Source: Nocardioides sp. LHD-245 (GTDB lineage Bacteria > Actinomycetota > Actinomycetes > Propionibacteriales > Nocardioidaceae). From it: 64,000 bases of DNA. Below the pieces are notes generated by a model. The model was not told where the DNA came from. It did not search any database and saw only the letters and a program-made list of their open reading frames with translations. Every line of letters begins with the position of its first letter. Position 1 is the stretch's first letter. The stretch is from the NCBI RefSeq assembly GCF_030929495.1, contig NZ_JAVFWN010000014.1:124001-188000 (forward strand), in the 5' to 3' direction. A program made the position numbers and the translations under genes. This document shows positions 16,655 to 19,934 of this stretch, in pieces.

Positions 16655-16746
16655 GTGAACCCCTGACGTCGTCGGAAGCGTCGAGCCTAGCCCCACCCGC
16701 GACACCTGTCGGACCACTCCCCTAGGGTCGGTCGGGTGAGCCGCCG

Positions 16747-18437: not shown

Positions 18438-19856
18438 TCAGGCGGCGTAGTCGTCGGCGAGGACGACCGCGCGCTCAGCGAGCAAGTGGTACTCGGTCTG
18501 GCTGAGAGCGGTCGTGCCCGTGCCGGTGACGAGGCGGTACAGGCCGTGGGGCGTGCCCCAGACCCACCGGTCCGGGCCGAGTTGGAACACCGAGTAGCCG
18601 AGGTGTGTCTTGGCACGGTGGTGATGGCGCGCCAGCGGGGTGTCGTTGTGGTCACCGGTCTGACCGGGCGGACCATGACCGTCGTAGGGCACGGTGTGGT
18701 CGTGATCAGGTGAGCGGCCAGCCCGGCCGAACAGCCCGGTGGCGTGCGGGAACCTGTCGCCCAGGACCCGCAGCTCGGTGCGTCGCCTGATGTCGGTGGG
18801 GTACTCGTAGCCGTTGACCGACCTGCCGGCGTGCAGGTCGATGACCGGGGTGACGGTGACGTGGGTGTGACGAGCAAGGAGGTCGCGGACCTGGTCGAGG
18901 AGTCGCGGGCCGAGTCGCTCGACCCTGGCCATCGGACCGAGGCCGCCGTCGGTGTCGTGGCTGAGGTGGACCACGATCTCCGCCGCCGCGGGTGCCGGTG
19001 CTGACGTTGGCGACTCGTCCTCGTCGCCCGTGTTGCTCTCACCGCCGGCGTGGAGGAAGGCGAGGACGGCGGCGGGATCGGCGAGCATCGCGAACGCCTC
19101 GGCCCGCCAGTGGTCCATGCCCGGCGACTCGTCGCCGTCGGGTACGTCGGGGGCCTGCGCGGCCAGCGCGGCGGCGAGGTCCTCGACCATGGCGTGATGG
19201 GCCACGGCGTCGGCCTCGTCGATGCGGGCGAAGATCGCGGCAACGCCTGCGGTGCTGTCGTCCGCGTCGACCTGGTCACCGGGCCGGGGCTGGGGGTACC
19301 AGACGCCCTTCTTGTCCCGGTTGGCCTTGATCCGCTCGGCATGAGCGGCGGGGTCAGCCTCGATGACTTTGGCCTCGGCGATCGCGAGGATCCGCGATGG
19401 GGCCTCGTCCAACGTGGCAGCGACCGCCGTGTCGACGACCGAGGCCTGGTCGCGGTCGAGCCTGCGCGACATCCGGGCGACCCGGCGCACGACCCACACG
19501 TCACACCGACCAGCCTGGACCCCGGCCCACACCGTCGGGAGGCGGTGACGCAGGTCCAGGACGTCGGCCAACGCGTTGCGGGTGGCCAGCACGCCCTCGT
19601 GGCGGGCGATCGCCATCTCGACCAGCGCGAGGTCCGCAACGCCAGGAGTGCCGTCCCCGCCGAGGGTGACGAGTCGCGGGCCGCCGTACCGGACCGGGAC
19701 CGCACCGGGCTGGTCCTGCGGATCCCCGGAATGCAGGTCGGCCCACGCGAGCAGCAGTCCGAGTTGGGCGACCTCGGCCGAGCGCCGCGTGCGCACACCG
19801 TCTTCGGCCGCGTGGAGCAACTGCTCCGCGGTGGCATCGGCGAGGTCCGAGATCAT
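18438..19856 (-). CDS. DUF222 / HNH endonuclease-like protein (13E12 repeat family), LexA-controlled
   Basis: 472 residues. The N-terminal two-thirds (LALVEMAIARHEGVLATRNALADVLDLRHRLPTVWAGVQAGRCDVWVVRRVARMSRRL...) is the DUF222 helical domain. The C-terminus carries an HNH-type nuclease segment (FPHATGLFGRAGRSPDHDHTVPYDGHGPPGQTGDHNDTPLARHHHRAKTHLGYSV) without structural Cys pairs. The family corresponds to the 13E12 repeat proteins of mycobacteria, several of which are SOS-induced. A perfect LexA box (19870-19885) sits directly upstream of TAGGAT (19863-19868), itself 6 nt from the ATG. Its function in DNA damage is not established. Confidence 0.88.
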   Translation of the reverse strand: MISDLADATAEQLLHAAEDGVRTRRSAEVAQLGLLLAWADLHSGDPQDQPGAVPVRYGGPRLVTLGGDGTPGVADLALVEMAIARHEGVLATRNALADVLDLRHRLPTVWAGVQAGRCDVWVVRRVARMSRRLDRDQASVVDTAVAATLDEAPSRILAIAEAKVIEADPAAHAERIKANRDKKGVWYPQPRPGDQVDADDSTAGVAAIFARIDEADAVAHHAMVEDLAAALAAQAPDVPDGDESPGMDHWRAEAFAMLADPAAVLAFLHAGGESNTGDEDESPTSAPAPAAAEIVVHLSHDTDGGLGPMARVERLGPRLLDQVRDLLARHTHVTVTPVIDLHAGRSVNGYEYPTDIRRRTELRVLGDRFPHATGLFGRAGRSPDHDHTVPYDGHGPPGQTGDHNDTPLARHHHRAKTHLGYSVFQLGPDRWVWGTPHGLYRLVTGTGTTALSQTEYHLLAERAVVLADDYAA

Positions 19857-19862
19857 GCCTCG

Positions 19863-19868
19863 ATCCTA
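19863..19868 (-). promoter_or_regulatory. -10 hexamer of the DUF222-HNH gene
   Basis: TAGGAT on the minus strand ends 6 nt before the ATG at 19856, implying a leaderless transcript that starts next to the adjoining SOS box. Confidence 0.55.
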
Positions 19869-19869
19869 C

Positions 19870-19885
19870 TCGAACACCCGTTCGA
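19870..19885. promoter_or_regulatory. LexA SOS box
   Basis: TCGAACACCCGTTCGA is a perfect match to the actinobacterial/Gram-positive LexA site TCGAACnnnnGTTCGA (perfect 6-bp arms, 4-bp spacer). It abuts the -10 of the DUF222-HNH gene, so LexA binding should block that promoter until DNA damage. Confidence 0.85.
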
Positions 19886-19934
19886 CTCCAAGCTTCTCCA
19901 CAGGCCTCGCGACCACCACTCGCGGAGCCTGGCA

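Follow-up and report, generated by a model that had tools for sequence, protein, structure and literature searches.

Background

DNase bacteriocins of the colicin E type are LexA-controlled systems in which an HNH nuclease stands under an SOS operator. The M. tuberculosis genes Rv3074 and Rv3776 are taken here to be 13E12/DUF222 genes. Both are induced by moxifloxacin (PMC7911356), five HNH endonucleases of that species are induced in a RecA-dependent manner (PMC8151990), and some of ten 13E12 HNH genes have been assigned to a hypothetical repair system under LexA control (PMC4181829). The statement of the sequence-only reading that some 13E12 genes of mycobacteria are targets of LexA is thus in print. 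A second damage regulator, PafBC, recognizes TGTCGG-N10-TA-N3-T in M. smegmatis and variant forms of it in M. tuberculosis (PMC8151990, section 3.5), and repair genes, recA among them, are known that combine the RecA-NDp motif and an SOS box (PMC8223512, excerpt). In the main texts of the papers searched, HNH or 13E12 genes were not found as PafBC targets, and 13E12 was not mentioned together with PafBC or RecA-NDp. PafBC and HNH appear together in two of these papers, PMC7641849 and PMC8151990; the sole mention of HNH in the latter concerns SOS-type genes.

The locus described here is a DUF222-like HNH gene of a Nocardioides relative, lying in a 64-kb stretch of DNA analysed as a whole and called the window below. 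Its features are collected in Table 1.

Table 1. Positions of the HNH gene and of its promoter elements in the window
Feature	Position	Strand	Basis
DUF222-like HNH gene, 472 aa (P0001), ATG at 19856	18438..19856	minus	open frame
HNH motif region, residues 384-418 (D-H-D-H ... N ... H-H-H-R-x-K-T-H)	18603..18707	minus	alignment A4
-10 hexamer TAGGAT, six nt from ATG	19863..19868	minus	sequence reading
TCGAACACCCGTTCGA, perfect actinobacterial SOS box (predicted LexA operator) within promoter spacer	19870..19885		sequence match
-35-like hexamer TTGGAG, 17-nt spacer	19886..19891	minus	sequence reading
TCCACAG upstream element	19897..19903	plus	enriched in family upstreams

The window gene and its promoter

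Read along the minus strand, the promoter consists of TTGGAG (19891-19886), TCGAACGGGTGTTCGA (19885-19870), G (19869), TAGGAT (19868-19863), CGAGGC and ATG (19856-19854), and the entire 17-nt spacer is made up of the SOS box and one base. The sequence-only reading had reported a perfect box at 19870-19885 that touches the -10 hexamer. Sequence and coordinates were exact, with 0 mismatches to TCGAACNNNNGTTCGA, and such sites were more frequent than in shuffled sequence or with a reversed pattern; the touching holds as adjacency and not as overlap, one base (G 19869) lying between box and TAGGAT. TCGAACACCCGTTCGA was the sole 0-mismatch match to TCGAACNNNNGTTCGA in the 64 kb, where sites with at most two mismatches numbered 12 against a mean of 2.9 and a maximum of 7 in 100 shuffles. 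Because the -10 hexamer lies six nt from the ATG, a leaderless mRNA is predicted for the gene. TA-type hexamers were present at the -10 place in most SOS-type relatives among those listed. The -35 was less constant, TTG beginning 5-8 nt ahead of the box in 26 of 45 upstream regions (those with a box of at most two mismatches at the promoter place, one of which, L078, was classed as PafBC-type). Elsewhere in the window, a perfect PafBC motif (TGTCGGACCACTCCCCTAGGGT) was found at 16707-16728 on the plus strand, 18 nt 5' of a small alanine-rich frame (84 aa) on that strand.

The encoded protein

P0001 gave no Pfam or NCBIfam match above cut-off, to DUF222 (PF02720) or to HNH, and nothing at E <= 0.01 in PADLOC or PHROGs. 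Its best relative was 74% identical and colinear over residues 1-472, and it was 34% identical to a copy that matches PF02720. In the A3 alignment, 7 of 43 rows matched PF02720 at E <= 0.01 and 1 of 43 matched a Pfam HNH model. Comparison by hhalign of the 16-row alignment of its kin (A4) with a four-row alignment of DUF222-type proteins (A5) gave a probability of 100 and an E value of 1.3e-42 over 404 columns, the HNH region included. The earlier label "DUF222" is therefore kept in the sense of remote homology, as the hhalign E value of 1.3e-42 supports it, and dropped in the sense of a score at the Pfam gathering threshold.

Residues D384, D386, H387, H413 and H418 were invariant in the 16 rows of A4, and N404 nearly so; from the motif, H387, H413 and N404 are putative catalytic residues. 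The zinc-binding Cys pairs of ordinary HNH fingers are present in relatives of the type found at the end of contig C7 and absent from P0001, and since P0001 also has no Pfam HNH match, its activity could be lost. An AlphaFold model showed a confident helical N-terminal domain and a poor HNH part (pLDDT under 50); Foldseek of this model against the PDB returned none at E <= 0.001 (best 1.1), and a profile search of PDB sequences gave nothing beyond ribosomal L20, at E values of 0.0014 or higher, and a single ATP synthase chain. In nine pairs of close relatives, dN/dS was 0.19-0.43, which indicates that the family genes are maintained as proteins.

SOS boxes in the host genome

The host genome (5.93 Mb in 46 contigs) held 10 perfect TCGAACNNNNGTTCGA sites against 0 for a reversed-pattern control; when one mismatch was allowed, the counts rose to 37 and 9 respectively, so that the single-mismatch sites are partly due to chance. 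Six of the 10 perfect boxes precede DUF222-HNH genes (on contigs C3, C5, C11 and C14, the last being the window gene, and at the ends of C7 and C16); the remaining four stand ahead of dnaE2, of imuA' and of two unnamed genes. RecA and ImuA' were named by NCBIfam, and a DnaE2-type polymerase was the best match of a partial protein. LexA was recognized by Pfam at C4:201362-201553, with four one-mismatch boxes upstream of lexA, and one one-mismatch box was found upstream of recA; with near-perfect boxes ahead of both genes, the sequence of the window box can be equated with the SOS operator of the host. A uvrA gene was tentatively placed at C19:3250 by reading of the sequence only.

The genes at the ends of C7 and C16 leave their contigs after 36 residues, and a search with this peptide gave relatives of full length within the genus. 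All five relatives scanned passed the Pfam cut-offs for DUF222 and HNH, and a perfect box was located 12-15 nt 5' of the start in all six examined. Further contig ends (C4, C6, C12 and C18 in addition to C7 and C16 of this genome, G000) fall inside family genes, as is expected of near-identical repeats, and the true copy number may accordingly differ from that counted. The family copy on C11 (L028, L029, L041; G000:C11:97573-98933) looks frame-broken, its pieces matching in different frames, and has a perfect box and an intact promoter. In the promoter of a gene starting VAQQIAPFTVSPHALPAT (L017; G000:C6:101282-101327), a perfect SOS box is accompanied by a strict PafBC motif.

Copies without a box

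The upstream region was readable in 20 family copies of the host genome, of which six had a perfect box, 12 had a PafBC-like promoter and two had neither. The PafBC-like motif, TGTCG-N11-NNNNNT, lies six nt ahead of the start codon with the spacing published for the M. smegmatis motif. None of the 12 has the strict TANNNT at -10; TGTCG and the spacing are kept. By first residues and promoter the 12 copies form groups of seven, four and one, and they count as three independent cases, or four with C4_33k, one of the two "neither" copies, which has TGTCGG-N10-GAGGAT with a longer leader. The closest box-less paralogue of the window gene in the genome (C1:61097) is PafBC-type.

The host carries pafB-pafC-tatA-tatC, with PafC and WYL domains recognized by Pfam. 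Strict TGTCGG-N10-TANNNT occurred at 27 sites in the genome against 0 in the reversed control and precedes, among others, recA, radA, uvrB, uvrC, dnaX, a DNA polymerase III alpha gene and nth, and probably also mfd, assigned by a weak N-terminal match. The sequence-only reading had suggested that the link between this repeat family and DNA damage is conserved. With a box in 6/20 copies and a PafBC-like promoter in 12/20, this stands for damage control and falls for the SOS box as a general property of the family; the trait that is kept would be control by DNA damage.

Relatives and changes of promoter type

One genome from each of 84,980 species was covered in a single scan, which yielded 67 loci belonging to Nocardioides, Pimelobacter and a Propionibacteriales MAG (two contigs). 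Sixty-four of them were entered for the promoter count (the short matches L125-L127 being left out), five had no upstream sequence and 59 were counted: 39 SOS-type, 15 PafBC-type and five neither, giving one or the other element in 54/59. Among the 39 SOS-type relatives, 36 had at most one mismatch and three had two. The five with neither were L089, L104, L107, L110 and L113, three of which start far inside the protein. The distance to the start codon was 11-14 nt from the box end and 6-7 nt from the PafBC motif, and two PafBC-type loci (L081, L115) also had a two-mismatch box over the start. A conserved inverted repeat resembling CCCCTAGAAACAAGGGG was seen upstream of the SOS box in L061-L066, L069, L070 and L072, all from one Nocardioides genome.

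A tree was built from 50 proteins (47 loci and three own copies; 35 SOS, 14 PafBC, one none), with L089, L104, L110, L113 and eight frames under 350 aa left out. The window gene belongs to a clade of 16 rows with support 100, all 16 SOS-type including itself and eight from one Nocardioides genome; the other 15 members have the box at the same promoter position with 0 or 1 mismatch. Retention of the box in close relatives, which had been named beforehand as a check on the idea, was thus observed throughout the clade. Over the whole tree, which came from a short search with SH-aLRT support only and has three long end branches, the promoter label changed 7 times, at least 5 of these changes being forced by branches with support of 95 or more; the label was clustered, the 7 changes comparing with 13.2 on average in shuffles.

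The sequence, its spacing, the host LexA with its other boxes and the conservation in the clade agree with the earlier proposal of LexA control at this promoter, and such control, in kind already known from mycobacteria, is very likely on these sequence data. That the window box arose by chance or is an inherited remnant without function is very improbable, given its fixed promoter position and its conservation through the clade and in part of the family.

Survey of the phylum and controls

DUF222 (PF02720) was present in 39 of 41 genomes of the family to which the window belongs and in 57 of 149 genomes of a phylum sample (own genome included in both), 92 of the 149 having no match, and matches per genome ranged from 0 to 24. 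A first look at 58 loci under a looser rule, made before the rule was written down, gave 29 SOS, 30 PafBC-like and 11 neither. The rule, which asked for a PafBC motif or for an SOS box having no more than one mismatch, was then applied as fixed beforehand to 80 further DUF222 genes, picked by hand among the best-scoring matches listed, with starts far inside the profile left out, and several of them sharing genomes. One or the other element was found in 58/80 genes against 1/80 in the control, the totals by kind being 35 SOS, 23 strict PafBC, 26 relaxed PafBC and 11 both kinds. Twenty-two of the 80 had neither under this rule, and 11/80 had neither even at two mismatches (69/80 covered). The SOS control for these genes was a changed dyad instead of the reverse strand, because the box is identical on both strands. 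Ten scrambled dyads were scored with two mismatches tolerated and the region somewhat reduced: nine gave 0-2/80, and the tenth gave 18/80 because only two of its positions differ from the box.

Other genes in the same loci and in the window had an SOS box or PafBC motif in 4/187 cases (region -250..+150, compared with -400..+20 for the rule). Counts in the neighbour control had at first been too high, since a palindromic box is common to both genes of a divergent pair; divergent genes were then split off, and an SOS box was found in 20/79 of them vs 2/187 of the other genes. The hexamer TCCACA/TGTGGA occurred at -70..-45 in 27/74 family upstream regions vs 1/187 others, the starts of the others being crude. 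TCCACA(G) occurs alike in SOS-type and PafBC-type copies (L061-L124 and own copies), and TCCACAG has the core alone in common with a DnaA box. TCCACAG was also considered as the edge of an element and rejected, no common motif being found after the stop.

Dual promoters

Where both elements lie near one another in these loci, the start of the box relative to TGTC falls into three clusters: upstream at -19 to -21 (eight of nine), over the -10 at +9 to +10 (six of six) and over the start at +21 to +23 (ten of eleven), with one case lying further downstream; several of these cases are paralogues within few genomes. In such arrangements LexA could block a promoter that is activated by PafBC. No report of dual promoters in the DUF222-HNH family was found in the literature searched.

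Proposed explanation

It is highly likely that the window gene is a member of an accessory, multi-copy DUF222-HNH family with expression coupled to DNA damage, by LexA at the window copy and by PafBC at sister copies, the two switches having been swapped or combined. Bound to its operator in the spacer, between -35 and -10, a LexA dimer would block RNA polymerase; after damage, RecA filaments on single-stranded DNA would trigger LexA self-cleavage, and loss of LexA would open the promoter and yield a leaderless mRNA. At sister copies PafBC would recognize TGTCGG at about -26, and sigma-A polymerase would start without a -35. Each step between operator and expression is taken from what is established about LexA and PafBC. 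Excerpts of PMC11804915 describe PafBC as activated by single-stranded DNA and as engaging the -26 motif. The two switches would have replaced one another repeatedly and at times been combined.

Most of the related genes examined carry one of the two switches, which suggests, on promoter sequences, that the family is produced upon DNA breakage. On the wider scale it is fairly probable that DUF222-HNH genes across Actinomycetota are under damage control as such, their promoters alternating between LexA, PafBC and compact dual forms while selection keeps the timing. Timing kept while the wiring is turned over would fit a nuclease that brings a benefit, or can spread, only during DNA breakage. 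No report of regulator swapping or of family-wide damage coupling was found in the literature searched, which covered few subscription journals. If true, most of the members examined in a very common Actinomycetota family of unknown function would be linked to DNA damage, the annotation "DUF222, HNH" would give way to a question that can be tested by way of two known switches, and the family would offer a natural case in which regulators are exchanged and the response is kept.

Role of the nuclease after induction

The surroundings of the window gene were compared in 19 genomes having the VOC gene at E <= 1e-30 (own genome included), 1.5 kb being searched on each side. The same neighbours were found in two of the 19, with slots of about 530 and 925 nt that showed no trace of the HNH gene and held other DNA (by reading, other genes), so that there was no clean empty site.

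A role in repair, as an incision enzyme acting for example with RuvABC and DnaE2, has been proposed for M. tuberculosis 13E12 genes (PMC4181829, excerpt) and is rated here as somewhat less likely than not. The family has regulators in common with recA, uvrB, uvrC, radA, dnaE2 and imuA', and its genes are under purifying selection. However, the range of 0 to 24 matches per genome, the 92 of 149 genomes without any, and the filling of the slot by other DNA in two relatives set the family apart from core repair genes, and the word HNH is absent from the main text of the Streptomyces LexA paper.

A second candidate is a selfish or recombination-promoting role, in which the nuclease would cut DNA while RecA and recombination are active and the gene would copy itself by gene conversion. 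Expansion in particular lineages (a single Nocardioides genome has 12 loci), near-identical copies with a common promoter and gene start, the accessory slot between orf18120 and the VOC gene, and the naming of REP13E12/DUF222 among repetitive elements (PMC10589994, excerpt) all speak for it. Against it, the slot comparison gave no clean empty site, no shared motif follows the stop, and neither a target site nor a transposition partner was found. It is judged somewhat unlikely.

Action as a suicide or growth-arrest DNase in heavily damaged cells has a precedent in MSMEG_1275, which cuts chromosomal DNA, kills on overexpression and is raised with repair genes (PMC9416677, excerpts). The same excerpts give no DUF222 assignment for MSMEG_1275 and report strong growth inhibition by only one of five HNH genes tested singly; many copies are retained per genome, and no immunity partner was seen adjoining the window gene. 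This role is rated as rather unlikely. As the task after induction, the cutting of cellular or incoming DNA in the damage response is weakly favoured.

Comparison with known systems

Like the 13E12/HNH genes of M. tuberculosis, the window HNH gene has an SOS box at its promoter; for the M. tuberculosis genes, induction by damage is published. It differs in that its protein belongs to a remote subfamily below the Pfam cut-off and is without the zinc Cys, that it comes from a Nocardioides relative, that the box occupies the spacer of a promoter predicted to yield a leaderless mRNA, and that sister copies have a PafBC-like promoter. With the mycobacterial PafBC/RecA-NDp regulon the host has in common the TGTCGG-N10-TA-N3-T motif, its spacing and the strict motif at DNA repair genes, whereas the -10 part is looser in the host family copies. 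As in bacteriocins of the colicin E type, an HNH gene stands under a predicted SOS operator; unlike them, the window gene belongs to a chromosomal multi-copy family, with no immunity or release gene seen adjoining it. MSMEG_1275 of M. smegmatis is likewise of the HNH family, and its DNase is raised together with repair genes; its reported regulator, in contrast to the LexA predicted for the window gene, is an ArsR protein (PMC9416677, excerpts).
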